DNA of 64,000 nt. Origin: Luteimonas rhizosphaericola (GTDB lineage Bacteria; Pseudomonadota; Gammaproteobacteria; Xanthomonadales; Xanthomonadaceae). The notes under the pieces were generated by a model. The model worked only from the letters and a program-made list of their open reading frames with translations, made no database searches and had not been told where the DNA came from. Below are positions 3,505-39,983 of the stretch, piece after piece. The stretch spans positions 1 through 64,000 of the forward strand of contig NZ_JARXRN010000024.1 in NCBI RefSeq assembly GCF_029888045.1. The letters are read 5' to 3'. The translations under genes were made by a program, and so were the position numbers. Numbering within the stretch: position 1 is the stretch's first letter; each line of letters opens with the position of its first letter.

Positions 3505-3518
3505 TGTTAACGCTAACG
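3505..3518 (+). promoter_or_regulatory. Degenerate xyl-box (LacI-family operator)
   Basis: TGTTAACGCTAACG matches the Xanthomonas xyl-box TGGTAGCGCTAACA at 11 of 14 positions. It lies 162 bp upstream of the near-consensus box at 3667, a spacing that would allow looping by a tetrameric LacI-type repressor. Function is inferred from sequence only. Confidence 0.45.
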
Positions 3519-3666
3519 CTGGTCGCTGGGGCGGACGGGTGTGGTTGCGCAGTGCAGCAAGGCTTTTCGGGGCGGCATGTGTAGAGTTCCGCACACGCCA
3601 TCAGCCGGATCGGCAGGCGTCGGGGAGCGGCTGGACGGACGTGTCGCCGTCACCGCACACATTTTT

Positions 3667-3680
3667 TGGTAGCGCTAACT
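3667..3680 (+). promoter_or_regulatory. xyl-box operator upstream of xylB
   Basis: TGGTAGCGCTAACT differs from the XylR operator described in Xanthomonas (TGGTAGCGCTAACA) at one position. It sits 18 bp before the xylB ATG, so a bound repressor would block transcription start or early elongation of xylB-xylA. The likely ligand protein is the LacI-family regulator encoded at 6648-7700. Confidence 0.8.
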
Positions 3681-3697
3681 TTATTCGGGGATCGTGG

Positions 3698-13318: not shown

Positions 13319-15079
13319 ATGATCGACCGCACCAAACGCCACCGCCGCCACGCGGCCTCCATGGGCCTGATGGCCGCCGGCGTCGCCGCATTGCTGCTGG
13401 CGGGTTGCCAGCGCGAACCAGCTGCAGCCGAGGCGCCGGCCCCAGCCGCCGACGCGACGCCGGCCGCCACGACGGCGTACTTCGACTGGTTCGAGTACAC
13501 CGGCCGCGACGCCGCCTTCGAGGCGCCTGTGCCGGAGGGCAGCTTCCGGAATCCGGTGCTGGCGGGCTTCCACTCCGATCCCAGCGTGACCGCGGCCAAC
13601 GGCAAGTTCTATCTCGTCGCCTCGACCTTCGCCTTCTTCCCCGGCATCCCGGTGTTCGAGAGCGAGGACCTGGTGCACTGGACCCAGGTGGGCAACGCCA
13701 TCCACCGCCCCGGGCAGCTGGACTTCGACGGGCTGGGCATGTCGCGCGGCGTGTTCGCGCCGGCGATCGAGTTCCACGACGGCACGTTCTACGTGGTCAA
13801 CACCTCGGTCGATGCCGGCGGCAACTTCATCGTCACCGCCAAGGATCCGGCGGGTCCGTGGTCGGATCCGGTCTGGCTGCCGACCATCGGCGGCATCGAT
13901 CCGTCGCTGTTCTTCGACGACGACGGCAAGGTCTACATCCTCAACAACGACGAACCCGAGGTGCCGGTCCGCTACGACGGGCATCGGGCGATCTGGCTGC
14001 AGGAGATCGACATCGCCAACGGCAAGCCGTTCGGCCCGCGCAAGGTGCTGATCGACGGCGGCGTGAAGCCCGAGGACAACCCGATCTGGATCGAAGGCCC
14101 GCACATCTACAAGGTCGACGGCTGGTATTACCTCAACAACGCCGAGGGCGGCACCGGGCCGCAGCACTCGCAGGTGATCCTGCGCAGCCGCGACGTCTGG
14201 GGGCCGTACGAACCCTACGCGGCCAACCCGATCCTCACCCAGCGCGATCTCGACCCGAACCGGCCGCTGCCGGTCACCAACGCCGGCCATGCCGACCTGG
14301 TGCAGGGCCCGGACGGCAGCTGGTGGGCGACGTTCCTGGCCAGCCGCAACTACGGCGTGGACCACTACAACACCGGGCGCGAAGCCTTCCTGCTGCCGGT
14401 GACGTGGACGAACGGCTGGCCGGTGATCCTGCCGCGCGGCGAAGGGATTCCCTACGTGCTGCCAGGGCCGTCCTTCATGAAGTCGCCCGCCGAGCAGGCG
14501 CCGATGACCGGCAACTTCACCTGGCGCGACGAGTTCGACACGGTGGAACTGGGCAAGGGCTGGATGACCCCGCGGGTGCCGAAGACCACGTGGTACGACG
14601 GCACGTCGCGCCCGGGCTGGCTGGCGATCCAGCCGCTGCGCGAGCGCCTGGACACCAAGGTCAATCCGTCGTTCTACGCGCGCCGGCAGCAGCACCAGGT
14701 ATTCGAGGCGAGCACCGCGATGGAGGTGCCCGCCGCCGGCGTCGCCGCCGGCTTGGCCGCGTTCCAGGGCGATACCCACTGGTACTTCCTCGGCGTGCGG
14801 CGCGGCGAGGGCGAGGCCATCGAAGTGTTCCTGGAGAAGAAGGCGGGCGAGGGCGATCCCGAGATCGTGGCCCGGGGTACCGCGGACGCCGCGAAACAGC
14901 TCAGTCTGCACATCGAGGGGAACGAGGGACGATACGGCTTCGGGTTCGATGCCGGCGACGGCGCCGGCGTGCAGTGGCTGACGCGCGATGCCGACGGCAC
15001 GATCCTGAGCACGGATGTCGCCGGCGGGTTTGTCGGCGCCACGATCGGACCGCACGCGCGCGACGAACGCGCGCTCTGA
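13319..15079 (+). CDS. GH43 beta-xylosidase/alpha-L-arabinofuranosidase, lipoprotein
   Basis: 586 residues. The N terminus is a lipoprotein signal with lipobox LLAGC (Cys30, +2 Gln), so anchoring in the outer membrane is likely. The five-bladed propeller has the catalytic set Asp87 (GFHSDPSVT), Asp194 (GGIDPSLFF) and Glu259 (WIEGPHIYK). A C-terminal concanavalin-like module spans about 395-586 (WRDEFDTVELG onward), the arrangement typical of XynB-like enzymes. Two ATGs, 13313 and 13319, are in frame; GAGGGG at 13306-13311 is properly spaced only for 13319. It follows manD by 20 bp and precedes GH3 by 22 bp in the same operon. It presumably trims xylo- or arabinoxylo-oligosaccharides; the arabinose versus xylose preference cannot be read from sequence. 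Confidence 0.9.
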   Translation: MIDRTKRHRRHAASMGLMAAGVAALLLAGCQREPAAAEAPAPAADATPAATTAYFDWFEYTGRDAAFEAPVPEGSFRNPVLAGFHSDPSVTAANGKFYLVASTFAFFPGIPVFESEDLVHWTQVGNAIHRPGQLDFDGLGMSRGVFAPAIEFHDGTFYVVNTSVDAGGNFIVTAKDPAGPWSDPVWLPTIGGIDPSLFFDDDGKVYILNNDEPEVPVRYDGHRAIWLQEIDIANGKPFGPRKVLIDGGVKPEDNPIWIEGPHIYKVDGWYYLNNAEGGTGPQHSQVILRSRDVWGPYEPYAANPILTQRDLDPNRPLPVTNAGHADLVQGPDGSWWATFLASRNYGVDHYNTGREAFLLPVTWTNGWPVILPRGEGIPYVLPGPSFMKSPAEQAPMTGNFTWRDEFDTVELGKGWMTPRVPKTTWYDGTSRPGWLAIQPLRERLDTKVNPSFYARRQQHQVFEASTAMEVPAAGVAAGLAAFQGDTHWYFLGVRRGEGEAIEVFLEKKAGEGDPEIVARGTADAAKQLSLHIEGNEGRYGFGFDAGDGAGVQWLTRDADGTILSTDVAGGFVGATIGPHARDERAL

Positions 15080-15101
15080 CACGCAACGGGAGGACGGGGA
15101 C

Positions 15102-17858
15102 ATGCACGCATCCGATCGACAGGCCGAGGCCGCTCAGCAGCGGCGCCAGCGCACGCGCTCGCGCACCCTCGTGCACGCCTGCGCGCTGGCGCTGCTGGCG
15201 GCACTGCCCGCCATGGGCGCGTTCGCGGCCGCCGGCGACCGCCCCTGGCTCGACACCTCGCAGCCGTTCGAGGCCCGCGCCGCCGCGCTGGTCTCGCAGA
15301 TGACGCTGGAAGAAAAGGCCGCGCAGATGCAGAACGACTCGCCGGCGATCGAGCGGCTCGGCCTGCCGGCCTACGACTGGTGGAACGAGGCCCTGCACGG
15401 CGTGGCGCGCGCGGGCGGGGCGACGGTGTTCCCGCAGGCGATCGGCATGGCCGCGACCTTCGACGTCCCGCTGATGGACCGGATCTCGAAGACCATCAGC
15501 GACGAGGCCCGCGCCAAGCACCACGAGTTCCTGCGCAACGGCCAGCACGGGCGTTACCAGGGACTCACGTTCTGGTCGCCAAACATCAACATCTTCCGCG
15601 ACCCGCGCTGGGGCCGCGGCCAGGAAACCTACGGCGAGGATCCGTTCCTCACCTCGCGCATGGGCATCTCGTTCGTGCGCGGCCTGCAGGGTGTCGCGCC
15701 CGACGGCAGCCCGCTGCCGGAATCGCAGGGCGGCAAATACCGCAAGCTCGACGCCACCGCCAAGCACTTCGCCGTGCACAGCGGTCCCGAGGCCGATCGC
15801 CACACCTTCGACGTGCATCCCTCGCGCCGCGACCTGTGGGAAACCTACCTGCCCGCGTTCGAGGCGCTGGTGACCGAGGGCCGGGTGCAGGCGGTGATGG
15901 GCGCCTACAACCGCGTCTACGGCGAGTCGGCCAGCGGCAGCAAGCTGCTGCTGCGCGACATCCTGCGCGACCAGTGGGGCTTCAAGGGCTACGTGATGTC
16001 CGACTGCTGGGCGATCGTGGACATCTGGAAGAACCACAAGATCGTCGCCACGCCCGAGGAGGCCGCCGCGCTGGCGGTGAAGAACGGCACCGAGCTCAAC
16101 TGCGGCGAGACCTATGCGAAGCACCTGCCGGTGGCGGTGCGCAAGGGGTTGATCAGCGAGGCCGAGCTGGACGATGCGCTCACCCGGCTGATGACCACGC
16201 GCATGGCGCTGGGCATGTTCGACCCGCCGGCGCAGGTGCCGTGGGCGCAGACGCCGATCTCGGTGAACCAGGCGCCTGCGCACGACGCGCTCGCGCGCGA
16301 GGTGGCGCAGGAATCGATCGTGCTGCTGAAGAACGACGGCGTGCTGCCGCTGTCGAAGGACATCAGGCGCCTGGCGGTGGTGGGGCCCACGGCCGACGAC
16401 ACCATGGCCCTGCTCGGCAACTACTACGGCACGCCGGCCGACCCGGTGACGATCCTGCGCGGCATCCGCGAAGCCCTGCCCAACACCGAAGTCGTGTACG
16501 CACGCGGCGCCGACCTGGTGGAAGGGCGCGAGGATCCGGCCGCCACGCCGCTGATCGAACCGCAGTACCTGCGGCCCGAGGCGGGCGCCACCGAGCGCGG
16601 CCTGCGCGGCGAGTACTTCACCAGCAAGGACCTGTCCGGCGAGCCGGTGCTGGTGCGCGTGGATGCGCAGATCGGCTTCCGCTGGGACCGCGGCTCGCCG
16701 ACCGACAACCTGATGGCGCGCGGCGAAGCCGGCCCGGACAACGCGGTGCCGAACGAGAACTTCAGCATCCGCTGGAGCGGCCAGCTGCTGCCGCCGGTGA
16801 GCGGCCGCTACCGGATCGAGGCCGGCGCCAACGACGGCTTCCGCCTGTACCTGGACGGCGAGCGCGTGCTCGACCACTGGGAGGACGCCGAGCGCCTGCG
16901 CGCCGACAGCGTCGAGCTCGACCTCGAGGGTGGCCGCGCCTACGACATCCGGCTCGAGTATTACGAGGCCGAACGCGACGCCAGCGTGCGCCTGGCCTGG
17001 GACCTGCCCGGCGCGAAGCCGACCTTCGACGAAGCGGTCGAGGCGGCGCGCAGTGCCGATGCGGTGGTGTTCGTCGGCGGCCTGACCGGCGACGTGGAAG
17101 GCGAGGAGATGACGGTCAACTTCCCCGGCTTCGCCGGCGGCGACCGCACCGACATCCGCCTGCCCGCCACCCAGCAGGCGCTGCTCGAAGCCCTGCACGC
17201 CACCGGCAAGCCCGTGGTCGTGGTGCTGACCACCGGTTCGGCGCTGGGCATCGACTGGGCCAAGGAGAACCTGCCGGCGATCCTGGTGGCCTGGTATCCC
17301 GGCCAGCGCGGCGGCAACGCGGTGGCGGACGTGCTGTTCGGCGACGTCAGCCCCGCCGGGCGGCTGCCGGTGACCTTCTACAGCGTCGATGAGCGGCTGC
17401 CCGCGTTCGACGACTACGACATGTCCGGCCGCACCTATCGCTACTTCGAAGGCGAGCCGCTGTATCCGTTCGGCCACGGCCTGTCGTACACGACGTTCGA
17501 CTACTCCGGCCTGGCGCTGGATCGCGACCGCGTGGGCGTGAACGAGACGGTCACCGCGACCGTCACCGTGCGCAACAGCGGCCAGCGCGCCAGCGACGAG
17601 GTGGTGCAGCTGTACCTGCGGCCGCTCGCGCCTGCGCGCGCTCGCGCCGTGCGCGAACTGCGCGGCTTCGAGCGCGTGCACCTGGCGCCGGGCGAGTCGC
17701 GCGAGGTCCGCTTCACGTTCACGCCGTCGCGCGACCTGCGGCACTACGACGAGGATGCCGGCGCCTACGCCGTCGATCCCGGGCGCTACGCCGCGGAAGC
17801 CGGTGCGTCGAGCGGCGACCTGCGCATCAGCAGCCAGTTCGAGGTGGAGGCGCGTTGA
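15102..17858 (+). CDS. GH3 beta-xylosidase/beta-glucosidase with PA14 domain
   Basis: 918 residues with a signal peptide (residues 1-43: RTRSRTLVHACALALLAALP, cleavage near AFAAA). The N-terminal barrel carries NIFRDPRWGRGQETYGEDP, KHFAVHSGPE and the nucleophile Asp301 in VMSDCWAI. A PA14 domain is inserted in the second domain at about 498-640 (GLRGEYFTS, then GANDGFRLYLDGERV). A fibronectin-III-like domain ends the protein (VTATVTVRNSGQRASDEVVQLY). GGGAGGACGGGGAC precedes the ATG at 15102. The xylan operon context favours beta-xylosidase over beta-glucosidase activity. PA14-bearing GH3 enzymes are usually exo-acting, with the inserted domain restricting chain length. Its stop overlaps the TTG start of the next gene. 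Confidence 0.92.
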   Translation: MHASDRQAEAAQQRRQRTRSRTLVHACALALLAALPAMGAFAAAGDRPWLDTSQPFEARAAALVSQMTLEEKAAQMQNDSPAIERLGLPAYDWWNEALHGVARAGGATVFPQAIGMAATFDVPLMDRISKTISDEARAKHHEFLRNGQHGRYQGLTFWSPNINIFRDPRWGRGQETYGEDPFLTSRMGISFVRGLQGVAPDGSPLPESQGGKYRKLDATAKHFAVHSGPEADRHTFDVHPSRRDLWETYLPAFEALVTEGRVQAVMGAYNRVYGESASGSKLLLRDILRDQWGFKGYVMSDCWAIVDIWKNHKIVATPEEAAALAVKNGTELNCGETYAKHLPVAVRKGLISEAELDDALTRLMTTRMALGMFDPPAQVPWAQTPISVNQAPAHDALAREVAQESIVLLKNDGVLPLSKDIRRLAVVGPTADDTMALLGNYYGTPADPVTILRGIREALPNTEVVYARGADLVEGREDPAATPLIEPQYLRPEAGATERGLRGEYFTSKDLSGEPVLVRVDAQIGFRWDRGSPTDNLMARGEAGPDNAVPNENFSIRWSGQLLPPVSGRYRIEAGANDGFRLYLDGERVLDHWEDAERLRADSVELDLEGGRAYDIRLEYYEAERDASVRLAWDLPGAKPTFDEAVEAARSADAVVFVGGLTGDVEGEEMTVNFPGFAGGDRTDIRLPATQQALLEALHATGKPVVVVLTTGSALGIDWAKENLPAILVAWYPGQRGGNAVADVLFGDVSPAGRLPVTFYSVDERLPAFDDYDMSGRTYRYFEGEPLYPFGHGLSYTTFDYSGLALDRDRVGVNETVTATVTVRNSGQRASDEVVQLYLRPLAPARARAVRELRGFERVHLAPGESREVRFTFTPSRDLRHYDEDAGAYAVDPGRYAAEAGASSGDLRISSQFEVEAR

Positions 17859-19375
17859 GCCGGGCCGCGGACACGCAACAGCAGGCGCAAGCGGCCACCG
17901 GGCCGGTGCGCCTGTCCGATGCCACGCTCGCGTCGCTGCCGGCGGAGGTCCAGCGACCGGCCTACGATCGCGACGCGACCACGGTCGGGATCGTGCATTT
18001 CGGCCCGGGCGCGTTCCACCGCGCCCACCAGGCGGCGTACGTCGACGACCTGCTCGCCGGCGAGCCGGATTGGGCGATCTGCGCGGTGTCGCTGCACAGC
18101 GCCGGGGTGCGCGACGCGCTGCAGCCGCAGGACGGGCTGTACACGCTGGCGCTGCTCGACGAGCCGCCGCGGCTGCGGGTGGTGGGTGCGATCCGCGAGG
18201 TGCTGTGCGCGCCGCAGCAGCGTGAGGCCGTGATGGCGCGGCTCGCGGACCCGGCGGTGCGCCTGGTGACGCTCACGATCACCGAGAAGGGCTACTGCCT
18301 GTCGGCCGACGGCGTCGATGCCGCGCATCCCGACATCGCCCACGATCTCGCCGCGCCCGATGCACCGGTCAGCGCGATCGGCTGGCTGGTGGCCGGCCTG
18401 CGCGCGCGCCATGCGGCCGGCGTCGCGCCCTACACCATGCTCAGCTGCGACAACCTCGCCGACAACGGGCTGCGCCTGCGCCGCGCCGTGCTCGATTTCG
18501 CGCGCCGGCTCGATCCCACGCTGGCCGGCTGGATCGGGGCGGAGGCCTCGTTCCCGCGCTCGATGGTCGACAGCATCACCCCGGCCAGCGACGACGCGCT
18601 GCGCGCGCGAATGGCCGACGCGCTGGGCGTCGAGGACGCCTGGCCGGTGCAGCGCGAGCCCTACGCGCAGTGGGTGGTGGAGGACGACTTCCGCGCCGGG
18701 CGGCCCGCGTTCGAGCGCGCCGGCGTGGTGATGAGCGGCGACATCGCCGACTTCGACCGCGCCAAGCTGCGCCTGCTCAACGCTCCGCACTCCGCGCTGG
18801 CCTACCTCGGCAGCCTGATGGGGCTCGAGACCGTCGCCGACGCGATGCGCGACGCGGCGCTCGCCGGCTTCGTCGAACGGCTGATGCGCGACGACATCGT
18901 GCCGACGCTCGCACTGCCCGACGCACTCGACGCGGACGCGTACATCGCCGCGATCCTCGAACGCTTCCGCAATCCCGCGATCGCGCACCGGCTCGCGCAG
19001 ATCGCCTGGGACGGCTCGCAGAAAGTGCCCGTGCGCCTGCTCGGCACGATCGCCGATGCGCTGGCCGCCGGCCGCGGCATCGATCGCCTGTGCCTGGTGG
19101 TGGCCGGCTGGCTGCGTTTCGTGGTGCGCCAGGCCCGCGCTGGCGAGGCCATCGTCGATCCGATGGCGGACGCGCTCACGGCACTGGGCCGCGACGCGAC
19201 CGGCGATGCCGATCGCGACATCGCCCCCTTTCTCAAGCTGGACGCGGTGTTCGCGCCGCTGTCGTCCGATCCGCGCTTCGTCGCCGCGCTGACGCGCGCC
19301 TACGCCGCGCTCGGCGGGGGCGACCGCGCGGCGGTGGCGTCAGCGCTCACCGCCGCGTCGGAGGCTCAGTCCTGA
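17855..19375 (+). CDS. uxuB: Fructuronate reductase (D-mannonate oxidoreductase)
   Basis: 506 residues of the long-chain polyol dehydrogenase family. It interconverts D-fructuronate and D-mannonate with NAD(H). Visible are the nucleotide-binding TTVGIVHFGPGAFHRAHQAAY, ITEKGYCL, SCDNLADNG, FPRSMVDSITPA, and a K-containing block AKLRLLNAPHSALAYLG with the catalytic-site Lys. The start is the TTG at 17855, overlapping the GH3 stop as TTGA, with GAGGTGGAGG just upstream; the next in-frame ATG would remove the Rossmann fold, so TTG is required. It overlaps the opposite-strand lactonase gene by 10 bp at the 3' ends. The family also holds mannitol and altronate enzymes; adjacency to manD and GH67 supports fructuronate. 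Confidence 0.9.
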   Translation: MSRAADTQQQAQAATGPVRLSDATLASLPAEVQRPAYDRDATTVGIVHFGPGAFHRAHQAAYVDDLLAGEPDWAICAVSLHSAGVRDALQPQDGLYTLALLDEPPRLRVVGAIREVLCAPQQREAVMARLADPAVRLVTLTITEKGYCLSADGVDAAHPDIAHDLAAPDAPVSAIGWLVAGLRARHAAGVAPYTMLSCDNLADNGLRLRRAVLDFARRLDPTLAGWIGAEASFPRSMVDSITPASDDALRARMADALGVEDAWPVQREPYAQWVVEDDFRAGRPAFERAGVVMSGDIADFDRAKLRLLNAPHSALAYLGSLMGLETVADAMRDAALAGFVERLMRDDIVPTLALPDALDADAYIAAILERFRNPAIAHRLAQIAWDGSQKVPVRLLGTIADALAAGRGIDRLCLVVAGWLRFVVRQARAGEAIVDPMADALTALGRDATGDADRDIAPFLKLDAVFAPLSSDPRFVAALTRAYAALGGGDRAAVASALTAASEAQS

Positions 19376-20466
19376 AAGCCGAGGCCCTCCACCTTCAGCG
19401 GTACGCGCGCGAGGAATTTGTGCGAGGTCATGTACAGCGTGCGGCCGTTGTCGCCGAAGGCGCAGTTGGCGATCGCGCTGCCGGTCTCGATCCGGCCCAG
19501 GCGCTTGCCCTCGGCGTCCATCACCAGCACGCCGCCGGGGCCGGTGGCGAACACCAGACCACCGGTCGAGACCGCCAGCCCGTCGGGCAGGCCGTGCACG
19601 CCTTCGCCCATCAGGTCGGTGGCATCGGCGAACACGCGGCTGCCGGTGACGTTGCCGGCGGCGTCGAGCGTGTAGGCCATCCAGATCGGTCGCGTCTCGT
19701 CCGAATTGGCCACGTACAGCGTATTGCCGTCGGGCGAGAAGGCCAAGCCGTTGGGGCGGGTCAGCGAATCGTCGACCAGGTGCACGGCGCCGTCGGCGTC
19801 GATGCGGTAGATGCCGTTGACCGGCTGTTCCTTGAGCGACGACTCGTCGCCGTCGGAGAACCCGTACGGCGGATCGGTGAAGAACACGCTGCCGTCGCCG
19901 CGCGCGACCACGTCGTTCGGGCTGCTGAAGCGCTTGCCGTCGTAGCGCTCGGCGAGCGTGGTGCGGCTCTTGTCCGCGGGATCCATGCGCGCGACCAGGC
20001 GGTTGCCCGAGTCGGCCACCAGGACCGTGCCGGCGGCTTCGGTGTACAGGCCGTTGGCACCGGCTTCGCGCACGCCCTCGATCGGCGCGCCGGCATGGCC
20101 CGACGGATCGAGGAACACGCTCAGGCCGTCCGCCTCGGACCAGCGGAACATGCGGTTCTCCGGCGGATCGTTGAACAGCAGGTAGCCGGCCTTCACCCAC
20201 GTCGGGCCTTCGGACCAGCTGAATTCGTCGCCGGTGAGCTTCTCGATGCGCGCGGCCGGGTCGACGACGTCGGCGAAGGCGGGATCGAACGAGGTCAGCT
20301 GACCGACGGTCTCGAACGTGGTCATCGGGGCGGTCTCCGTCTCGGCGGTGTCGGTGGTCGCCGCATCGGCGGGCGCGGCCTCGGCGCCGGCGTCTTCGGC
20401 AGCGGGCGAACACGCGGCGAGGGCGGCCGCGAGCGCGGCACTGAGCAGGGTGGGAAGCAGTCGCAT
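19366..20466 (-). CDS. SMP-30/gluconolactonase-family lactonase, predicted lipoprotein
   Basis: 366 residues with a lipoprotein signal ([13 protein letters not shown], Cys19, +2 Ser), which predicts an outer-membrane-anchored periplasmic enzyme, followed by a low-complexity Ala/Glu/Thr linker to about residue 48. The beta-propeller contains the family metal ligands: SEGPTW (Glu), SSPNDVV (Asn), [19 protein letters not shown] (Asn) and LPDGLAVS (Asp). The family hydrolyses aldonolactones. It lies back to back with a 2-keto-3-deoxy-aldonate dehydratase operon, which suggests D-xylonolactone or L-arabinonolactone as substrate. Most pentonolactonases are cytoplasmic; a lipidated one is unusual and shapes the pathway hypothesis in the findings. 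ATG at 20466; the 3' end overlaps uxuB by 10 bp. Confidence 0.85.
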
Positions 20467-20780
20467 CGGCGGGTCCTGTCTGGAAGTGGAGGCGGGGAGT
20501 CTGCGCATGCAGTGCGCGTTCCGCGCCGGTTCGCGCCACGTCGCGCGGTGCGAACCGCTGCAGCCTGCAACGCGATCCGCAGCGCGATCATAGCCGCAAC
20601 CTCCACGCGTGCGGGCCGCCGATGCGGTTGCATCGGCAACCGCCAGCCCGCGCCCACGCATCATGTCGACACGCGCGCAGCGCATCGCCCGACTTCCGCG
20701 ACGGCCTGCGCGCCGCGCGGCCACGCCGCCAGCCGCGCCGTCGCGGCGCAACGTCCATGCCCGACTCCGGAAACCTGCCC
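20467..20780. other. Divergent intergenic region, lactonase / keto-deoxy-aldonate dehydratase
   Basis: About 314 bp (or 290 bp if the upstream ATG at 20757 is used). The only structure I see is the nested inverted repeat at 20619-20641. No xyl-box is present, so these divergent genes may be controlled separately from the xyl-box genes. No small gene is convincing. Confidence 0.5.
20619..20641. repeat. Nested inverted repeats (possible operator)
   Basis: CCGATGC-GGTT-GCATCGG (20619-20636) overlaps GGTTGC-ATCG-GCAACC (20626-20641). Both have perfect arms, so the shared segment can form either of two mutually exclusive hairpins. It lies between divergent genes of the oxidative pentose route, where an operator is expected. 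Confidence 0.4.
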
Positions 20781-21599
20781 ATGTCCACGCTGCTGACCCG
20801 CCACGCCACCGACGGGGGCCCGCGCTGGGCGCTCGACGGCCGCTACCTGCCCGCCGATTTCAGCCTCTCGCACTGGCTCGGCCTGCCGGCTGCCGACGCG
20901 CGCGCCGCGCTCGCGCGCCTGCCGCGCGAAGGCGACGCCGACGCGCCGCTGCTGGCGCCGGTGGAGGACGCGCAGGAAGTGTGGGCCAGCGGCGTGACCT
21001 ACCTCAGCAGCCGCATGGCGCGCGAGGCCGAGTCGCAGAGCCGCGACGTGTACCAGAAGGTGTACGACGCCGAGCGTCCCGAGCTGTTCTTCAAGGCCAC
21101 CGGCTGGCGCGTCGCCGGCCATGGCGCGCCGATCCGCGTGCGCGCCGACAGCGCGTGGGACGTGCCCGAGCCCGAACTGGTGCTGGTACTCACGTCGGCG
21201 GGCGAGATCGTCGGCTACAGCACCGGCAACGACGTGTCCTCGCGCAGCATCGAGGGCGAGAACCCGCTGTACCTGCCGCAGGCCAAGGTCTACGATGGCG
21301 GCTGCGCGATCGGCCCGGGCATCCGCCTGTGCGATGCGGCGCAGATGCGCGACCTCGCCGTGTCGCTGGAGATCCGGCGCGACGGCACGCCCGCCTTCGC
21401 CGGCACCACCCGCACCTCGCAGATCAAGCGCAGCCTGGAGGAACTCGCCGGCTGGCTGCTGCGCGAACTGCGCCAACCCCGTGGCGCCTTCCTCTTCACC
21501 GGCACCGGCATCGTGCCCGGCGAGGATTTCACCCTGCGTTCCGGCGACGTCGTGCGCATCGACATCGACGGACTGATCCTGGAGAACCCCGTCCAATGA
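20781..21599 (+). CDS. 2-keto-3-deoxy-pentonate dehydratase, FAH superfamily (KDXD-like)
   Basis: 272 residues. It closely resembles the short archaeal-type 2-keto-3-deoxy-D-arabinonate/xylonate dehydratase: [38 protein letters not shown] with metal-binding Glu, [19 protein letters not shown] and [12 protein letters not shown] are arranged as in the Sulfolobus enzyme. The product would be 2,5-dioxopentanoate (alpha-ketoglutarate semialdehyde). Caulobacter XylX is about 110 residues longer. Starts at 20757 and 20781 are both ATG; 20781 has a GGA at suitable spacing and was chosen. The stop overlaps the dehydrogenase start (ATGA), indicating coupled translation with the next step of the pathway. 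The pentonate isomer used (xylose- or arabinose-derived) cannot be decided from sequence. Confidence 0.85.
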
Positions 21600-23194
21600 C
21601 CACCCCCACGCTGCAACCGATCCTGCTCGACGGCACCTGGCGCCAGGCCGACGCGCCGACCGACCGCTTCCACGCCTTCGACCCCTCCACGCGCGCGACG
21701 CTCGACGAGGTCGCCTATCCGGTGTCCGGCTGGGCCGACCTCGACGCCATGCTCGATGCCGGCCAGGCCGCGGCCGCGGCCATGGCGCAGCTTCCCGGAG
21801 AAGCGCTGGCCGGCTTCCTCGAAGGCTATGCCGACGCGATCGAAGCGCGCGCCGACGTGCTGGTGGAGGCCGCGCACCGCGAGACCGGGCTGCCGGCCGA
21901 GCCGCGCCTGCGCAATGTCGAGCTGCCGCGCACCACCGGCCAGCTGCGCCAGGCCGCACGCGCGGCGCGCGACGGCGGCTGGCGCCGCGCCACCATCGAC
22001 ACCGCCGCCGGCCTGCGTTCGATCCACGCGCCGCTCGGCGGCCCTGTCGTCGTGTTCGGGCCTAACAACTTCCCGTACGCGTTCAACGGCATCGCCGGCG
22101 GCGATTTCGCCGCCGCGATCGCGGCCGGCAATCCGGTGATCGCCAAGGCGCATCCCGCGCATCCGCGCACCTCGGTGCTGCTGGCCGAAGCCGCGGTGGA
22201 CGCCGCGCAGGCCGCGGGCCTGCCGTCGGGCGCGGTGCAGATGGTCTTCGCCACCGGCAATGAGCTCGGCCTGCGCCTGGTCGCCGATCCGCGCGTGGGC
22301 GCGGTGGCGTTCACCGGCAGCCGTCCCGGCGGCATGGCGCTCAAGGCCGCGGCCGATGCCGTGGGCAAGCCGGCGTACCTGGAGATGTCGAGCGTCAACC
22401 CGGTGTTCGTGCTGCCCGGTGCGCTGCGCGAGCGCGGCGAGGCGATCGCCACCGAGCTGCACGGCTCCTGCGCGATGGGCGCGGGCCAGTTCTGCACCAA
22501 GCCGGGCGTGACCGTGCTGCAGGCGGGCGAGGACGCCGAACGGTTCGTGCAGCAGCTGCAGCGCCTCACCGCGGAGGCGAAGCCGGGCGTGCTGCTCACG
22601 CCGCACGCGCCGCGCGACATCGGCAAGACGGTCGACGCGCTGCGCGCGGCCGGCGCCGAGGTGCTCGCGGGCGGCGCGGTCGCCGACGACGCGCCGGGCT
22701 ACGCGTTCCAGCCCACGGTGCTGCGCGCGTCAGGCGAGCGCTTCCTCGCCGATCCGCACGCGCTGCAGTCCGAGGCCTTCGGCCACGTCAACCTGGTGGT
22801 GGTGGCGGAGTCGGCGGCGCAGGTGCTGGACGTCGCCCGCGCGATGGAAGGCAACCTCACCGGCACCATCTACAGCGATACCGGCGGCAGCGACGATGCC
22901 ACCTACGACGCGCTCGCGCCGATCCTGCGTACGCGCGTGGGGCGGCTGCTCAACGACAAGATGCCCACCGGCGTCGCGGTGAGCGCGGCAATGAACCACG
23001 GCGGCCCGTTCCCGGCGACGGGACACCCAGGCTTCACCGCGGTCGGCATTCCCGCGTCGCTGATCCGCTTCTCGGCACTGCACAGCTACGACAACGTGCG
23101 CCCGCACCGCCTGCCGCCGGCGCTGCAGGACCGCAATCCGACCGGCACGCTGCCGCGCTTGGTGGACGGCGAGTGGACCACGCGTGACGTGTAG
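21596..23194 (+). CDS. 2,5-dioxovalerate (alpha-ketoglutarate semialdehyde) dehydrogenase
   Basis: 532 residues of the aldehyde dehydrogenase superfamily, oxidising 2,5-dioxopentanoate to alpha-ketoglutarate with NAD(P). The nucleophile is Cys300 ([13 protein letters not shown]) and the general base Glu263 ([11 protein letters not shown]). The cofactor site shows [14 protein letters not shown] and [10 protein letters not shown]. The FGPNNFP and QFCTKPG variants are characteristic of the KGSADH group rather than of standard ALDHs (which read PWNFP and GQVC). ATG 21596 overlaps the preceding stop as ATGA. A 156-bp gap follows before the dehydratase gene. Together with its neighbours it feeds pentose carbon straight into the TCA cycle. 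Confidence 0.9.
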
Positions 23195-23350
23195 CGCGCC
23201 CGGCGCAGGCGGAATGCTTTGCGGAATGCGCGCCGCGTGTCTCCCGCTCCCGCTTGCGGGGAAGGGCCGGGACGGTGGGACGCAGCGTTGCCTGCGTTCG
23301 CGTTCCATCGCCGGCGTCGATGCGTCGCACGATGCGCCGAGGAGCGCGCC

Positions 23351-25402
23351 ATGACGTCTCCCGCGTTCGATCTCGACACCCTGCTCGGCGACGGCGCACC
23401 GATCGCGCGGTCGCGCACCAGCGGCGAAGGCCCGGCCGGCAGCCTGCCGATCGACGCCGACACCCTGCGCGATTCGCCCAGCGGCCACCTGTTCGGCATG
23501 ACCCAGAACGCGGGCATGGGCTGGCGCGCCTCGGAAGTCGCGCGCGATCCGTACCTGATCGTCAGCACCCAGGGCGGCCTGCGCGCGGAGAACGGACAAC
23601 CGGTCGCGCTCGGCCTGCACACCGGACACTGGGAAATCGACCGCATGGTGCGCGCCGCCGCCGAAACCTTCGCCGCGCACGAGGGGCTGCCGTTCTCGGT
23701 GATGTGTTCCGATCCCTGCGACGGGCGGACCCAGGGCACCACCGGCATGTTCGACAGCCTACCGTACCGCAACGACGCGGCGGTGGTGATGCGGCGGCTG
23801 ATCCGCTCGCTGCCCACGCGCCGCGGCGTGCTGGGCGTGGCCACCTGCGACAAGGGGCTGCCGGCGACGATGCTGGCGCTGGCCGGCTGCGCCGACCTGC
23901 CCGGCGTGATCGTGCCTGGCGGCGTCACGTTGCCTGCGCGCGGGGCCGAGGACACCGCCGTGGTGCAGACGATCGGCGCGCGCTTCTCGCACGGGCTGAT
24001 CGACCTCGAACACGCCGCCGCGATGGGCTGCCGCGCCTGCGGTTCGCCCGGCGGGGGCTGCCAGTTCCTCGGCACCGCGGCGACCTCGCAGGTGATCGCC
24101 GAAGCGCTCGGCATCGCGCTGCCGCACAGCGCGCTGGCGCCGTCCGGCGAACCGGTCTGGCTGGACATCGCGCGGCGCTCGGCGCTGGCGCTGGTGCAGC
24201 TGGCGCAGCAGGGCACGCCGCTGTCGGCGATCCTCACCCGGCAGGCGGTCGAGAACGCCGTGATGGTGCATGCCGCGTTCGGCGGTTCCACCAACCTGCT
24301 GCTGCACGTGCCTGCGATCGCGCACGCGGCCGGCGTCGAGCGCCCCACGGTCGACGACTGGATCCGCGCCAACCGCGCCACGCCGCGGCTGGTCGACGCG
24401 CTGCCCAACGGCCCGCGTCACCACCCCACGGTTCAGGTGTTCATGGCCGGCGGCGTGCCGGAAACGATGCTGCACCTGCGCGCGATGGGCCTGCTGCACC
24501 TCGACGTGCTCACCGTGACCGGTCGAACGCTGGGCGAGAACCTCGACTGGTGGGAGCGCAGCGACGCGCGCCGGATCGCGCGCGAGCGCCTGCGCGAACT
24601 CGACGGCGTCGATCCCGCGCACGTGATCATGGGCCCGGATGCCGCGCGCGCGGCGGGCATGTCCAGCGCGCTCGTGTTCCCGCGCGGCAACATCGCGCCG
24701 GACGGCTCGGTGATCAAGGCCACCGCGATCGATCCGTCGGTGGTCGACGACGACGGCGTGTATCGCCACACCGGCCCCGCGCGCGTGTTCGCCAGCGAGC
24801 GCGACGCGATCCGCGCGATCAAGTCCAGGGGCAAGGATGCGGTCCGCGCCGGCGACATCGTCGTGCTCGCGGGCTGCGGCCCGGCGGGCACCGGCATGGA
24901 GGAAACCTACCAGCTCACCTCCGCGCTCAAGCACCTGCCCTGGGGCAAGCACGTGGCGGTGATCACCGACGCGCGTTTCTCGGGCGTCTCGACCGGCGCC
25001 TGCATCGGCCACATCGGGCCGGAAGCGCTGGCCGGCGGGCCGCTTGGCCGGCTGCGCGACGGCGACGTGGTGCGGATCGAGATCGACCGCGTGCGGCTGG
25101 AGGGCCGGTTGGACTTCATCGGCGAAGATCCGGACGCGCCACTGGATTCGGCTGCCGCTGCGGCCGTGCTCGCCGCACGCGAAACGCATCCGGCCATCGC
25201 CGCGCATCCGCGCCTGCCCGCCGATACCCGGCTGTGGGCCGCGCTGCAGGATGCCAGCGGCGGCACCTGGGGCGGCTGCGTGTACGACGTGGACGCGATC
25301 CTGGACACCCTGCGCGCCGGCCGCGAGGCGCTGCGCATGGCGCACCGTCCCGTTGGCCCGGCAATGCCTGACACCAGTCGCCGGGGAGGGCGCACCGCAT
25401 GA
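23351..25402 (+). CDS. yjhG: D-xylonate dehydratase, YjhG/YagF type (IlvD/Edd family)
   Basis: 683 residues against about 655 in E. coli YjhG/YagF. It converts D-xylonate to 2-keto-3-deoxy-D-xylonate with an iron-sulfur cluster. Candidate cluster cysteines lie in [22 protein letters not shown] and [32 protein letters not shown] and [20 protein letters not shown] are the family substrate/Mg blocks. The opening [20 protein letters not shown] and [17 protein letters not shown] are specific to the YjhG/YagF subgroup rather than to IlvD or Edd. GAGGAG precedes the ATG at 23351. The stop overlaps the gntP start (ATGA), the same pairing as yjhG-yjhF in E. coli. Confidence 0.9.
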
Positions 25403-26709
25403 CCATGTTCCTGATCATCGCCGCGGCGATCGCGCTGCAGATCTTCCTGACCGCACGCAAGCTCAGCCCCTTCCTCTCGCTGCTGATCGTGGCGATCCCG
25501 ATGGGGCTGCTGCTCGGCATGTCGCCGCTGGACCTGCTGAAGACCATCGACAACGGCGTGGGCAGCACCCTGGCCGGGCTGGCGCTGGTGATCGTGCTGG
25601 GCGCGATCCTGGGCAAGGTGCTGGAGGAAAGCGGCGCGGCGGAGAAGATCGCCACCACCCTGATCGCGCGTTTCGGCGAGAAGAACATCCAGTGGGCGCT
25701 GCTGCTCACCGGCTTCCTGGTCGGCATCCCGCTGTACTTCAACGCCGGTTTCATCATCCTGGTGCCGCTGATCTTCTCGCTGGCGCGCAGGACCGGGCTG
25801 CCGATCCTGTACCTCGCCATCCCGACGGTCGCCTCGCTCAGCACCACCCACTGCTTCCTGCCGCCACACCCGGGGCCGGTGGTGCTGGTGAACGCGTTCG
25901 GCGCCGACATGGGCCTGACCCTGGTCTACGGTATCGCGATGGCGATCCCGGCGGTGATCATCGCCGGCCCGGTGCTGGGCAAGCGGATGCAGGTGATCAA
26001 CCCGCCGATGCTGGACCTGTTCATGTCCAGCACCGAGCACAAGACGCTGCCGGGCGCGACCAGCTCGTTCCTGATCGCGCTGTCGCCGGTGATCCTGATC
26101 AGCGTCTCGGTGCTGGCCGATGCGCTGCTGCCCGAGGGCGTGCTGCGCACCGCGCTGCTGTTCCTCGGCAATCCCACCGTCGCGCTGCTGCTGGCGACGC
26201 TGGTCGCGTTCTGGTGGCTCGGCCATCGCCGCGGCGTGGGCCTGGAGACGCAGACGAAATGGCTCAACGCCGCGATCGCCGGCATCGCGGTGATCCTGCT
26301 GATCATCACCGCCGGCGGCGTGTTCAAGCAGGTGCTGGTGGACAGCGGGGTCGGCGCGCGGATCGCCTCGCTGAGCGAGAGCTGGCGCATGCCGCCGCTG
26401 ATCTTCGCCTGGCTGGCCACGGCGATCCTGCGGGTGATGATCGGTTCGGCCACGGTCGCGGTGATTACCGCCGCCGGCATCGTCGGCCCGCTGATCGCCA
26501 CCACCGGCGCCTCGCCGGAACTGATGGTGCTGGCGGTGGGCGCCGGCAGCGTGTTCGGTTCGCACGTCAACGATTCGGCGTTCTGGATGTTCAAGGAGTT
26601 CTTCAACCTGTCCATGAAGCAGACCTTCGCCTCGTGGACGGTGATGGAAACCACCATCTCGATCGTCGGACTGGCGGGCGTGCTGCTGCTGGACCTGATG
26701 GTCGGATGA
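25399..26709 (+). CDS. GntP-family aldonate permease
   Basis: 436 residues, very hydrophobic, about 12-14 membrane helices, inner membrane. GntP-family signatures are [48 protein letters not shown] and [17 protein letters not shown]. Members carry gluconate and related aldonates in symport with protons. ATG 25399 overlaps the xylonate dehydratase stop, so permease and dehydratase are likely made together, which points to D-xylonate (or another pentonate) as cargo. That implies the aldonic acid forms outside the cytoplasm. A GH115 gene follows 108 bp downstream with its own strong ribosome-binding site. Confidence 0.92.
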
Positions 26710-26817
26710 GACTCGGTGCCGGTCGCGGCGTCGGGCCGCCGGGCATTCCGTTCCCGGCAGGGCCCGGGCGCGCTGTCGCCGGCGGAAACTGGAAGACATG
26801 ATGAGAGGAGCAAGACC

Positions 26818-29391
26818 TTGAAGACACGGCCTGGCCTGCGCGCCTGGTGGCTCGCATCCGTCCTGTTCGCCAGTGGCGCCGCCCTGGCCTGCGACACGCC
26901 CGCGACGATCTGCGAACGCGCCACCCGGGGCGACTTCGCGCTGCTCGACGGCGGCGTGCCGGCCACGGTGCTGGTGGATGCCGGTGCCGACTCCGCGGTG
27001 CGTCGGGTAGCCGCTTCGCTGGCGGAAGACCTCGGCCGCGTCGGCGGTTCGGCACCGGACGTGCTGACCGCGGCCGACGGCGTCGACGGACCGGTCGTCG
27101 TGGTCGGCGTGCAGGGCGACAGCGAGTGGATCGACGGCCTCGTGGCCGCCGGCAAGCTGCGTCTCGATGACATCGGTGGACAGTGGGAGGCGTTCCAGCT
27201 CGCCGTGGTCGACCGGCCCTGGCCGGGCGTGGCGCAGGCGCTGGTGATCGCCGGGTCGGACCGGCGCGGCGCGGTGTTCGGTACTTTTGACCTGTCCGAG
27301 CGCATCGGCGTCTCGCCCTGGCACTGGTTCGCCGACGTGCCGGTGACGCGGCGCCCGACCGTGCGTGTCACCGCGGGCGAACGCAGCGACCGCCCCGGCG
27401 TGCGCTACCGCGGCTTCTTCATCAACGACGAGGACCCGGCGCTCAGCGGCTGGGCAGAGAAGAAGTTCGGCGGCGTCAATGCCGACATGTACGCGCACGT
27501 GTTCGAACTGCTGCTGCGACTCAAGGGCAACTACCTGTGGCCGGCGATGTGGGCGCCCAAGTCCTTCCACCTGGACGATCCGCGCAGCGCGGCGCTGGCG
27601 CACGAGATGGGCGTGGTGATGGGTACCTCGCACCACGAACCGCTCACGCGCGCGCAGGCCGAGTGGCACCGCCTCGAGGACGATCCTTCCACCGGCGGCG
27701 AGTGGGACTACGCGCGCAACGGCCGGAACCTGCGCACGTTCTGGCGCGGCGGCCTGGAGCGCATGATGCGCGGTCCCGGCGGCGGCATGCACGAGAACCT
27801 GCTGACGATCGGCATGCGCGGCGACGGCGACGCGCCGATGAGCGAAGGCACCGCGACCGACCTGCTGGAGCGGGTGGTGGCCGACCAGCGCCGCCTGATC
27901 GAGGAGGTCACCGGCAGGCCCGCGTCCGAGGTGCCGCAGATGTGGGCGCTGTACAAGGAAGTGCAGGACTACTACGACCAGGGCATGACCGTTCCCGACG
28001 ACGTCACCCTGCTGTTCGCCGACGACAACTGGGGCCAGATCCGGCGCCTGCCCACGCGCGACCTCGAGCGTGCCGGCGGCTTCGGCGTGTACTACCACTT
28101 CGACTACGTGGGCGTGCCGCGCAACTACAAGTGGCTCAACACCAACCAGATCGGCAAGGTCTGGCAGCAGATGGACCTGGCCTGGCAGCGCGGCGCGCGC
28201 GACATCTGGATCGTGAACGTCGGCGACATCAAGCCGGTCGAGTATCCGCTCGACTTCTTCATGGACATGGCCTGGGCGCCGGAGCGCATGACGCCCGAGG
28301 CGCTGGCGGCCTATCCCGAAGACTGGGCGGCGCAGCAGTTCGGCGCGGAACTGGGCGCGGAGGTCGGCGCCTTGATGACGGAGTACTCCCGGCTGGCGGC
28401 GCGTCGCAAGCCGGAGCTGGTGAACGAGGGCACCTATGCGCTGGGCGAGATCCGTCCCGACGTGCTGGTGCGCGGCGAGTGGAGCGGGATCGTGGAGGAC
28501 TGGCGCGCGCTCGCCGCCCGGCTCGATGCAGTGCGGCCGCGCGTGCCGGAGGCGGCGCGGCCGGCCTTCTTCCAGCTGGTGGACTATCCGATCCAGGCGG
28601 TGGCGAACCTCTACGAGATGTACTTCGCCACCGCCTGGAACCAGCGCCTGGCCGCGCGCTTCGATCCGCGCGGCAATGTGTTCCTCGAGCAGGCCGAACG
28701 CGCGTATGCGCGCGATGCCGAACTGGTGCGCGAGTACCACACGCTGCTGGACGGCAAGTGGGACAAAATGATGTCCCAGGTGCACACGAACTACGTGATC
28801 TGGAACGACCCGGTGCGGCAGAACCCGCCGGTGCTGATCCGCACCGCGGGCGACGTGCCGGAGAAGATGCGCAACGCGCGCGCGGTGTTCGTGGATCCCG
28901 AGTCCGGCGCCGGCCCGATCCGCATCGACGCCGTCGATGTCGATCGCGGCGTCGCCGCGGGTGGCATCGCCTGGTCCCCTGTTCCCGATCTCGGCCAGGG
29001 TCGCGCGGGCCTCGTGGCGCTGCCGCAGGGCCGGCCGCCGACCACGCCGCCGGCGGCGCCGCGCGCGGAATACGACGTGACCCTGCCGGAGAACCGGGGC
29101 ATCGAACTGCGCCTGCGCCTGGCGCCGACCCTGGATACGGTCGGTCGTGGCGGCGTGCGCATCGGCGTATCGCTCGACGACGGCCCGGTGCAGACCCTGG
29201 TCTCCGACCTCGAACCCACTGGCGGCGGCGCCGAAACCGAAGGCCAGAAACGCTGGTACGCGGCGGTCATCGACAACCGCGTGGAGCTGTCCGCGGAGTT
29301 CGAACCGCTGCCTGCCGGCCGGCACACGGTGAAGTTGTGGCGGCTGGACGACAACGCGGTGGTAGAGGCGCTGGAGCTCGTGCCGCGGTGA
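26818..29391 (+). CDS. GH115 alpha-glucuronidase (first copy)
   Basis: 857 residues. GH115 enzymes remove (4-O-methyl)glucuronic acid from internal as well as terminal xylose units, unlike GH67. The start is the TTG at 26818, giving a signal peptide (MKTRPGLRAWWLASVLFA, cleavage near ALA-C). AGGAG at 26806-26810 sits seven bases upstream, and no in-frame ATG serves. Diagnostic blocks are GVRYRGFFINDEDPALSGW, KGNYLWPAMW, MGTSHHEPLTRAQAEW, IGMRGDGDAPMSEGTATDL, LLFADDNWGQIRRLP and GVYYHFDYVGVPRNYKW. It lacks about 100 residues present at the C terminus of the second GH115 (45574-48447). It sits just after the oxidative pentose genes and may be the last gene of that transcript. Confidence 0.93.
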   Translation: MKTRPGLRAWWLASVLFASGAALACDTPATICERATRGDFALLDGGVPATVLVDAGADSAVRRVAASLAEDLGRVGGSAPDVLTAADGVDGPVVVVGVQGDSEWIDGLVAAGKLRLDDIGGQWEAFQLAVVDRPWPGVAQALVIAGSDRRGAVFGTFDLSERIGVSPWHWFADVPVTRRPTVRVTAGERSDRPGVRYRGFFINDEDPALSGWAEKKFGGVNADMYAHVFELLLRLKGNYLWPAMWAPKSFHLDDPRSAALAHEMGVVMGTSHHEPLTRAQAEWHRLEDDPSTGGEWDYARNGRNLRTFWRGGLERMMRGPGGGMHENLLTIGMRGDGDAPMSEGTATDLLERVVADQRRLIEEVTGRPASEVPQMWALYKEVQDYYDQGMTVPDDVTLLFADDNWGQIRRLPTRDLERAGGFGVYYHFDYVGVPRNYKWLNTNQIGKVWQQMDLAWQRGARDIWIVNVGDIKPVEYPLDFFMDMAWAPERMTPEALAAYPEDWAAQQFGAELGAEVGALMTEYSRLAARRKPELVNEGTYALGEIRPDVLVRGEWSGIVEDWRALAARLDAVRPRVPEAARPAFFQLVDYPIQAVANLYEMYFATAWNQRLAARFDPRGNVFLEQAERAYARDAELVREYHTLLDGKWDKMMSQVHTNYVIWNDPVRQNPPVLIRTAGDVPEKMRNARAVFVDPESGAGPIRIDAVDVDRGVAAGGIAWSPVPDLGQGRAGLVALPQGRPPTTPPAAPRAEYDVTLPENRGIELRLRLAPTLDTVGRGGVRIGVSLDDGPVQTLVSDLEPTGGGAETEGQKRWYAAVIDNRVELSAEFEPLPAGRHTVKLWRLDDNAVVEALELVPR

Positions 29392-29488: not shown

Positions 29489-29842
29489 TCAGCGCGGCTG
29501 GTGCGACAGCTGTCCCCCCGTGGGAAGGCGCTGCCGGCGCGCGCGGATGTCGAGGTACAGGCTGTAGGCGGCGGTCGCGGCGGGCAGCAGGTTCTGCAGC
29601 ACGCCCACCGCGTCCTGCTTGGCCGAGAACAGGAAGTACGACAGCGCCATGAGGCTGCCGGCCAGGCTCATGTACCAGAACAGTCGCGGAATCACGGGGC
29701 GCCCGGCGCGATACGAAGCCAGCGCCTGCACCAGCCAGCGTGCGCCGAACATGCCCGCGCCGGTCAGGCCGATCAGCTTCCAAGGCGTGACGTGCAGGCC
29801 GGTCCAGCCCAGCCACAGGATTTCCTGGTCGAGCGCGCTCAT
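29489..29842 (-). CDS. Lipid-A-disaccharide synthase N-terminal-domain (LAB_N) membrane protein
   Basis: 117 residues with about three hydrophobic helices. It starts MSALDQEILWLGWTGLHVTP and shows WKLIGLTGAGMFGARWLVQ, RLFWYMSLAGSLMALSYF and DAVGVLQNLLPAATAAYSLYLD, the LAB_N domain that also heads some LpxB proteins. Stand-alone LAB_N proteins are usually found beside GT2 and PMT-type glycosyltransferases that decorate lipid A; their biochemical role is not settled. The ATG at 29842 overlaps the stop of the upstream GT2 gene (ATGA), so the two are translationally coupled. It is the last gene of a four-gene leftward set. Confidence 0.85.
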   Translation of the reverse strand: MSALDQEILWLGWTGLHVTPWKLIGLTGAGMFGARWLVQALASYRAGRPVIPRLFWYMSLAGSLMALSYFLFSAKQDAVGVLQNLLPAATAAYSLYLDIRARRQRLPTGGQLSHQPR

Positions 29843-30573
29843 CCTGCACCTCCGCCGCGGATCTCGCTGACCGCGGTCACGTGGCTGCGGCTGATCAGCC
29901 AGGACACGCCGAACAGGTCGCGCAGTCCCACCAGCGCGCGACCGAGGTTGCCGTACTTCGAGCGCCCCCAGCGGCGGGGCCGATGCGCGACCGGGATGCT
30001 CGCCGTCGCCCAGCCCGCGCGCTGCATCAGCGCCGGCAGGTAGCGGTGCATGTGGTCGAAGTAGGGCAGGTCGAGGAAGGCCGCGCGCTCGAACAGCTTG
30101 ATGCCGCAGCCGGTGTCGGGCGTGGCGTCGTGCAGCAGCCGCCGGCGGATGCCGTTGGCCCAGCGCGAGGCCCAGCGCTTGCCGGCCGAGTCCTGGCGGT
30201 CCACCCGCCAGCCCGCGAACAGCCGGGTGCGCGGGTCGGCGCGGTCGCGCGCCTCGAGCAGGCGCAGGATGTCGGCCGGATCGTTCTGGCCGTCGCCGTC
30301 GAGGGTCGCGATCCAGGCCGACTGCGCCTGCTTCACGCCGGTGCGGATCGCCGCGCTCTGGCCGCTGCGGCGCTGGTGCGCGAACACCCGCAGTTCCGGC
30401 ACCTCGCCCGTCAGCCGCGCGAGCACGTCGCGGGTGCCATCGTCGGAGCGGTCGTCGACGCAGACGACCTCGAACGCGATCCGCCCGCGCAGGTGGCGCA
30501 CGATCTCGTGCACCAGCGGCGCGATGTTCTCGCGCTCGTTGAACGCAGGCACAACCACCGAAAGCGAGGTCAT
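29839..30573 (-). CDS. Family 2 glycosyltransferase (dolichyl/undecaprenyl-phosphate mannosyltransferase type)
   Basis: 244 residues, cytoplasmic GT-A fold. It begins MTSLSVVVPAFNERENI, with VCVDDRSDDGT, then IATLDGDGQNDPADI with the metal-binding DGDGQ, and RRWGRSKYGNLGRAL. There are no obvious C-terminal membrane helices. This is the DPM1/ArnC-like family, which loads a sugar onto undecaprenyl phosphate for a PMT-type membrane transferase. The partner is probably the ArnT-like protein at 32405-34114. The sugar is unknown: an ArnC role would need a UDP-Ara4FN pathway, and no other arn genes are present in the window. Both its start and stop overlap neighbours by 4 bp (ATGA). Confidence 0.88.
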   Translation of the reverse strand: MTSLSVVVPAFNERENIAPLVHEIVRHLRGRIAFEVVCVDDRSDDGTRDVLARLTGEVPELRVFAHQRRSGQSAAIRTGVKQAQSAWIATLDGDGQNDPADILRLLEARDRADPRTRLFAGWRVDRQDSAGKRWASRWANGIRRRLLHDATPDTGCGIKLFERAAFLDLPYFDHMHRYLPALMQRAGWATASIPVAHRPRRWGRSKYGNLGRALVGLRDLFGVSWLISRSHVTAVSEIRGGGAG

Positions 30574-39940: not shown

Positions 39941-39983
39941 GCGGTCTCCTCGGGGACATGGTGTTCCTCTCGCGGCTGCCTGT

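Follow-up and report, generated by a model that had tools for sequence, protein, structure and literature searches.

In a 64,000-nucleotide stretch of the Luteimonas rhizosphaericola genome (the window; bases 1–64000 of contig 16 in an assembly of 3.9 Mb and 29 contigs, with completeness rated at 100%), we found a module encoding a lactonase, the 2-keto-3-deoxy-D-pentonate dehydratase XylX, an aldehyde dehydrogenase (ALDH), a YjhG/YagF-type D-xylonate dehydratase, and the aldonate permease GntP, set among genes for glucuronoxylan utilization. We consider it probable that this module catabolizes D-xylonate (and xylonolactone) as a built-in part of the glucuronoxylan-utilization locus, with the acid arising outside the cytoplasm, and oxidized xylan as its most likely origin.

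All five genes were found where a first-pass annotation, made from the DNA letters and their open reading frames (ORFs), had placed them, and family models bore out the lower Weimberg steps that it proposed. Against NCBIfam models, the YjhG dehydratase scored 1058.7 bits (TIGR03432; cut-off 808) and GntP 481 bits (TIGR00791; cut-off 293), and the gntP gene overlaps the dehydratase gene by 4 bp, as had been noticed. XylX is 97% identical to a sequence named as from Luteimonas viscosa, and its best solved relative acts on 2-keto-3-deoxy-D-arabinonate, the same 2-keto-3-deoxy-D-pentonate (D-KDP). According to a study of such dehydratases, the FAH family is the annotation of D-KDP dehydratases and the DHDPS family that of their counterparts acting on the L-form (L-KDP) (PMC7374468), so that membership of XylX in the FAH family favors D-xylonate or D-arabinonate over L-arabinonate as the acid handled. 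A D-xylonate dehydratase together with an FAH-family 2-keto-3-deoxy-D-xylonate dehydratase confirms, at the level of sequence families, the predicted lower Weimberg module. For the proposed 2,5-dioxovalerate dehydrogenase, the gene and its ALDH family stood, while the exact activity is presumed from context, i.e., the 4-bp overlap of this gene with xylX: the match was at family level, with a best NCBIfam score of 110 bits (cut-off 615) and no equivalog above its cut-off among the best 25 of 39 matches, and the best solved relatives were 3v4c and 1eyy. The gene order of the module is conserved. In ten relatives compared (two of them, L106 and L113, are L018 and L021 in the 80-locus set described below, so that the sets overlap), ManD, GH3, and UxuB lie upstream of XylX in all ten, and the order XylX-YjhG-GntP is kept in nine; in the other, L114, a GntP of 34% identity lies ahead of XylX. 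The cluster is also carried by L. kalidii (L017) and probably by L. viscosa.

The lactonase is predicted to be an exported lipoprotein, as residues 16–19 (LAAC) follow a hydrophobic stretch and, by pattern and by eye, Cys19 is the lipobox cysteine that the first-pass annotation had pointed out. Alignment revealed the motifs WSEGP (from residue 84), SSPND (181), RPNG (237), and LPDG (293), the best solved relatives were 3e5z and 3dr2 ("exported gluconolactonase"), and membership in the SMP-30 family fits a putative xylonolactonase. The earlier proposal of an exported lactonase and an aldonate permease as the entry point of the pathway is supported. An alignment of 28 XylX sequences was used to scan species genomes; at least 587 stretches were confirmed, of which the best 80, with flanks of differing length, were analyzed. 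Lactonases of this family were present in 8/80 loci, and seven of the eight were close relatives (L017, L019, L020, L023, L066, L077, and L080): four of these carry a lipobox (L017, L019, L023, and L066), two have a Sec-like start by eye, and one is part of a secreted-looking GH10 fusion (L020), so that, judging from their N-termini, 7/8 look exported. GntP homologs occurred at 14/80 loci. Best-match mapping and ORF reading of L023, from a Polyangiaceae metagenome-assembled genome (MAG), placed lactonase, GntP, XylX, ALDH, and YjhG consecutively on one strand, with a lipobox at the start of the lactonase, and in L043, GH62/GH10 and GH10 genes are followed by GntP (32% identical), XylX, ALDH, and YjhG. 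At seven Bacteroidota loci (L054, L065, L067, L069, L074, L088, and L090), the best match was an arabinonate-type IlvD dehydratase replacing YjhG, an assignment taken from best-match rows, as the separate presence flags for YjhG and the arabinonate-type dehydratase cross-match and do not distinguish the two; GntP was present in L065 and L069, and GH115 in L069.

Some relatives of the lactonase are joined to a xylanase. In the L020 fusion (18576–20537, minus strand), located ∼8 kb from XylX, the lactonase lies behind a GH10 xylanase. A protein search with its lactonase part, in which the best 120 of 4795 matches were examined, returned 21 proteins with both GH10 and SMP-30 (P0121–P0235), one of them from Lysobacter cavernae. 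All 21 kept the motifs NEP and TE[LM]D, which we take to be the GH10 catalytic motifs, and a signal-like start was seen by eye in the L020 fusion and in the five other fusions whose starts were inspected. A quickly built tree covered 90 lactonase domains, with 12 of 50 proteins longer than 700 residues kept and 38 dropped; in it, the fusion label changed four times, with at least two changes forced by well-supported branches. Stand-alone homologs of the GH10 part of the fusion are encoded ∼11 kb from XylX in genome G158 and ∼8 kb from the lactonase in G097, where the lactonase stretch contains one stop codon. These findings tie the lactonase to extracytoplasmic xylan breakdown, without telling which lactone is opened. 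No description of a GH10/SMP-30 fusion was found in the literature searched, as judged by titles and the starts of abstracts, and it may be described elsewhere. As a separate observation, 50 of the 120 best lactonase matches exceed 700 residues and mostly combine PF01731 or PF03088 with PF08450; among these large architectures (811–1086 residues, P0124–P0178), the two that are fully named come from Vicinamibacteria and Pyrinomonadaceae MAGs.

The window is a glucuronoxylan-utilization locus with its own xylose route (Table 1). It also codes for an acetylesterase-like protein, a TonB receptor, a GPH symporter, and three GH43 proteins, two found by family scan and one, at 54860, by eye. The UxuB-like protein scored 351 bits against PRK15037, under the cut-off of 603. 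Signal- or lipobox-like N-termini were recognized by eye in the GH43 at 13319, the GH3, GH67, and GH10 proteins, and both GH115 proteins. A search with a Xanthomonas xyl-box gave near matches at 3505, 3667, 49908, 50072, and 52458 (3 mismatches), i.e., nine matches at five places (palindromes counted on both strands) versus 2.3 expected, a number reached in 1/100 shuffles. The palindromic xyl-box-like sites (1–3 mismatches) lie at 3505–3680, around the xylB start, and at 49908–50085, upstream of the TonB receptor gene in a divergent region. A PEP mutase/isocitrate lyase family protein is encoded beside the xylan genes (37457–38218, minus strand), and between the two xylan blocks (29489–32211, minus strand) lie genes for a family-2 glycosyltransferase and a membrane phosphoethanolamine-transferase-like protein, both named by eye.

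Table 1. Features of the module (first six rows) and of the surrounding glucuronoxylan locus, in window coordinates.
Feature	Position	Strand	Family evidence
SMP-30/gluconolactonase-family lactonase	19366–20466	−	PF08450, 156 bits
Divergent intergenic region, lactonase gene/xylX	20467–20780	none	
XylX, FAH-family 2-keto-3-deoxy-D-pentonate dehydratase	20781–21599	+	PF01557
ALDH, presumed 2-oxoglutarate semialdehyde (2,5-dioxovalerate) dehydrogenase	21596–23194	+	PF00171
YjhG/YagF-type D-xylonate dehydratase (IlvD/EDD superfamily)	23351–25402	+	TIGR03432, PF00920, PF24877
GntP-family aldonate:H+ symporter, presumed D-xylonate importer	25399–26709	+	TIGR00791, PF02447
XylB xylulokinase	3539–5191	+	TIGR01312, 514 bits (cut-off 380)
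XylA xylose isomerase (start approximate)	5229–6560	+	TIGR02630, 670 bits (cut-off 533)
GH67 alpha-glucuronidase	7818–10034	+	PF07488, 506 bits
ManD D-mannonate dehydratase (start approximate)	12096–13298	+	NF043051, 710 bits (cut-off 550)
GH43 beta-xylosidase-type, lipobox-like N-terminus	13319–15079	+	PF04616, PF17851
GH3-type glycoside hydrolase (beta-xylosidase-like), Sec-like N-terminus	15015–17858	+	family named by eye
UxuB-like fructuronate reductase/mannitol dehydrogenase family	17855–19375	+	PF01232, PF08125
GH115 alpha-glucuronidase, directly downstream of gntP, exported by eye	26716–29391	+	PF15979, 479 bits
Xylan block: GH43, GH10, GH2, UxaC, second GH115	38336–48447	−	Pfam

The families and order of the module genes argue strongly for a pathway in which an extracytoplasmic lactone would open spontaneously or through the action of the exported lipoprotein lactonase, and GntP would bring the resulting D-xylonate into the cell. 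There, YjhG would convert D-xylonate to 2-keto-3-deoxy-D-xylonate, XylX would convert this to 2-oxoglutarate semialdehyde, and ALDH would complete the route to 2-oxoglutarate. Xylose from the same xylan would be routed via XylA and XylB; the first-pass annotation overlooked both genes, and because they lie in the same locus, its view of the module as a xylose consumer is doubtful. The xylonate would most likely derive from C1-oxidized xylan ends, or be free xylonate from other organisms, e.g., fungi, with release by the glycosidases of the locus. Xylobionic, xylotrionic, and xylonic acids have been reported as products of fungal enzymes (PMC8612270, PMC9730589), which makes oxidized xylan ends a plausible source and hints at, rather than establishes, oxidized xylan as the origin. 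We propose, as a tentative extension, that oxidized-xylan salvage occurs in more than one phylum, with an outward lactonase (in some cases GH10-fused), xylonate passing via GntP to the lower Weimberg enzymes, and xylose passing via XylA and XylB. If true, this would do for xylan what cellobionate use does for cellulose, feeding on the ends left by C1-oxidizing fungal or bacterial enzymes.

The main rival has the module in common with the reading above and differs in the source of xylonate: the cell itself would oxidize xylose in the periplasm, using an Asd/YliI-like lipoprotein (or a heme-c protein) and scavenged pyrroloquinoline quinone (PQQ), before lactone opening and import by GntP. The membrane PQQ-type aldose dehydrogenase that the first-pass annotation expected elsewhere did not appear: the model for the membrane glucose dehydrogenase Gcd (TIGR03074) had no match in the genome, while 4/14 controls matched, E. 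coli among them, with one above the cut-off, and Gcd was above the cut-off in 50/198 genomes of the family, so the search works in this family. PQQ synthesis was judged from pqqE; the best pqqE match in the genome reached 46 bits against a cut-off of 381, which no control genome exceeded either, and 23/198 family genomes were above it (24 at E ≤ 1e-60). Among the 11/198 family genomes with XylX, both markers were infrequent, without significance: Gcd was above the cut-off in 1/11 (G060; G155 had a weak match) versus 49/187 of the others (Fisher p = 0.30), and pqqE at E ≤ 1e-60 was found in 0/11 versus 24/187 (Fisher p = 0.37). In favor of periplasmic oxidation, the genome has four GSDH-family matches, three of them full-length (L005, L006, and L007; contigs 20 and 8). 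L005 is closest to the glucose dehydrogenase 7cdy (255 bits) and to 2g8s (244 bits), which is presumably E. coli YliI; by eye, L005 and L006 have lipobox-like N-termini and L007 a CASCH (heme-c) motif. For the absence of any periplasmic aldose dehydrogenase, which the first-pass annotation had named as evidence against its scheme, the outcome is divided: Gcd is absent, while two soluble-type Asd/YliI-like proteins with lipobox-like starts, L005 and L006, are present, and these could oxidize aldoses only with PQQ from outside. The three proteins scored 95–114 bits against TIGR03606, far under its cut-off of 435, and no match to L005 or L007 (E ≤ 1e-15) was found in any of the 80 XylX loci. Even with the precedent described for Pseudomonas (PMC11252243, PMC10107873), where a different enzyme oxidizes xylose, we regard self-made periplasmic oxidation as unlikely.

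Less likely still is a conventional Weimberg pathway located in the cytoplasm, with a sugar dehydrogenase encoded elsewhere as its first enzyme and another role for the exported lactonase and GntP. When the window was scanned with motif patterns, an approach that can overlook members, neither an SDR nor a Gfo/Idh/MocA-like dehydrogenase was found, and none was found by motif scan in 17 related loci or in L023, in line with the earlier remark that no cytoplasmic xylose dehydrogenase is seen. Elsewhere in the genome there are six Gfo/Idh/MocA matches (three searched against NCBIfam, L014 alone by structure-sequence search, and the other three inspected by eye), 19 SDR matches, and three GMC oxidoreductases, two of these near a Gfo/Idh gene on contig 12. 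L014, a candidate for this route, resembles D-galactose-1-dehydrogenase 4ew6 (516 bits) and L-arabinose 1-dehydrogenases (370 bits) and looks cytoplasmic, as no signal peptide was recognized by eye. In 17/80 loci, at least one dehydrogenase-like ORF (unfiltered motif patterns) occurs within 7 kb of XylX. However, L014, on contig 8, is unlinked to XylX and nearer another dehydratase, being ∼9 kb from an arabinonate/galactonate-type IlvD gene and near a sugar ABC transporter, the SDRs are ≤37% identical to the XylX-linked SDR of L024, and in another phylum, too, GntP and an exported lactonase accompany the module. L014 and L097 on contig 8 form a second sugar-oxidation locus, with a LysR-type regulator and a YtfQ/YtfR-like ABC transporter (under equivalog cut-offs). 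A module for another aldonate, D-gluconate or D-arabinonate for instance, with GntP as a plain gluconate permease, is very improbable: the GntP and lactonase families do carry gluconate names and the XylX relative does act on 2-keto-3-deoxy-D-arabinonate, but YjhG is well above the D-xylonate dehydratase cut-off, XylX and ALDH would take a C5 acid to 2-oxoglutarate, and the context is xylan.

Several observations weigh against the reading of the module as an entry route for xylonate from oxidized xylan. A close lactonase lies beside XylX in 3/10 relatives and is missing there in 7/10; one of them, G097, has a 67%-identical lactonase on another contig, and six (five g11 genomes and G158) have only 39–43%-identical lactonases genome-wide, so the close lactonase is dispensable. 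ALDH is local in only 6/10 relatives. The eighth lactonase of the XylX loci, L059, is distant (30% identical) and by eye has no lipobox or clear signal peptide, and the fusion with GH10 may indicate a lactonase substrate other than xylonolactone. No AA10 lytic polysaccharide monooxygenase was found in the genome (1/14 controls was positive), and oxidized xylan ends would therefore have to come from other organisms. Two GH43 proteins (38336–40180 and 54860–55879) have no signal peptide by eye; with export signals thus mixed among the glycoside hydrolases, monomers are probably released partly outside and partly inside the cytoplasm, and some oligosaccharide cleavage may be intracellular. Dehydrogenase-like ORFs were scarcer near XylX with GntP (1/14 versus 16/66), a difference from unfiltered patterns that is not significant (p = 0.28). 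The xyl-box-like sites lie near xylB and at 49.9–50.1 kb, with none at the module, leaving co-regulation with the xylan genes unsupported; the divergent region 20467–20780 contained neither a xyl-box-like site (≤3 mismatches) nor an inverted repeat of ≥10 bases within 20.

The lactonase, importer, and dehydratase set could be used in xylose or xylonate bioprocessing, for which lactone opening and xylonate uptake have been reported as bottlenecks (PMC11252243). Should oxidative attack on xylan regularly yield xylonate, the consumers of this acid are little described in the literature, as far as searched. A defined set of genes that includes an exported lactonase with some xylanase-fused relatives would be a marker for such organisms.

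The Xanthomonas xylan utilization system combines XylR boxes with GH10, GH43, GH67, UxuA/UxuB/UxaC, and XylA/XylB, as here, and we know of no xylonate module in it. Entry in the Caulobacter crescentus xylXABCD system is cytoplasmic; that system shares the XylX, ALDH, lactonase, and dehydratase functions and has an NAD-dependent XylB dehydrogenase, whereas the lactonase of the present module, nearest 3e5z/3dr2, looks exported. The first-pass annotation was mistaken in stating that all Weimberg pathways known from bacteria start in the cytoplasm, as Pseudomonas oxidizes xylose in the periplasm and imports xylonate (PMC11252243, PMC10107873). In P. taiwanensis VLB120, periplasmic Gcd oxidizes xylose, lactone opening takes place in the same compartment, and xylonate is imported by GntP and a major facilitator superfamily (MFS) protein; its lactonase, D-xylonate-carrying GntP, lower Weimberg enzymes, and periplasmic xylonolactone and xylonate are like those found or proposed here, while its PQQ-dependent Gcd and its MFS protein as the major importer are not, and a link to a xylan locus or XylAB was not found in the consulted passages of that account (PMC11252243). 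P. putida M2, BP6, and BP8 likewise combine xylD-X-A genes and a transporter, show no obvious xylose dehydrogenase, and oxidize xylose in the periplasm by Gcd; in the genome studied here, no Gcd was found and the dehydratase is of the YjhG/YagF type, and the main text of the P. putida account does not mention a lactonase (PMC10107873). The Salmonella xynABC operon similarly provides genes for growth on xylonate itself, with no xylan locus mentioned in the abstract (PMC12445098), and cellobionic acid utilization is an analogous use of the acid end of an oxidized polysaccharide, with cellulose and gluconate there and xylan and xylonate here (PMC4537572, PMC4403981). Periplasmic entry is thus not new, and what sets the present locus apart is an exported lactonase beside the module, a xylan locus with xylose isomerase, and no Gcd or pqqE found in the genome. 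The link to xylan digestion via an exported lactone-opening enzyme looks less familiar than the general idea known from Pseudomonas.

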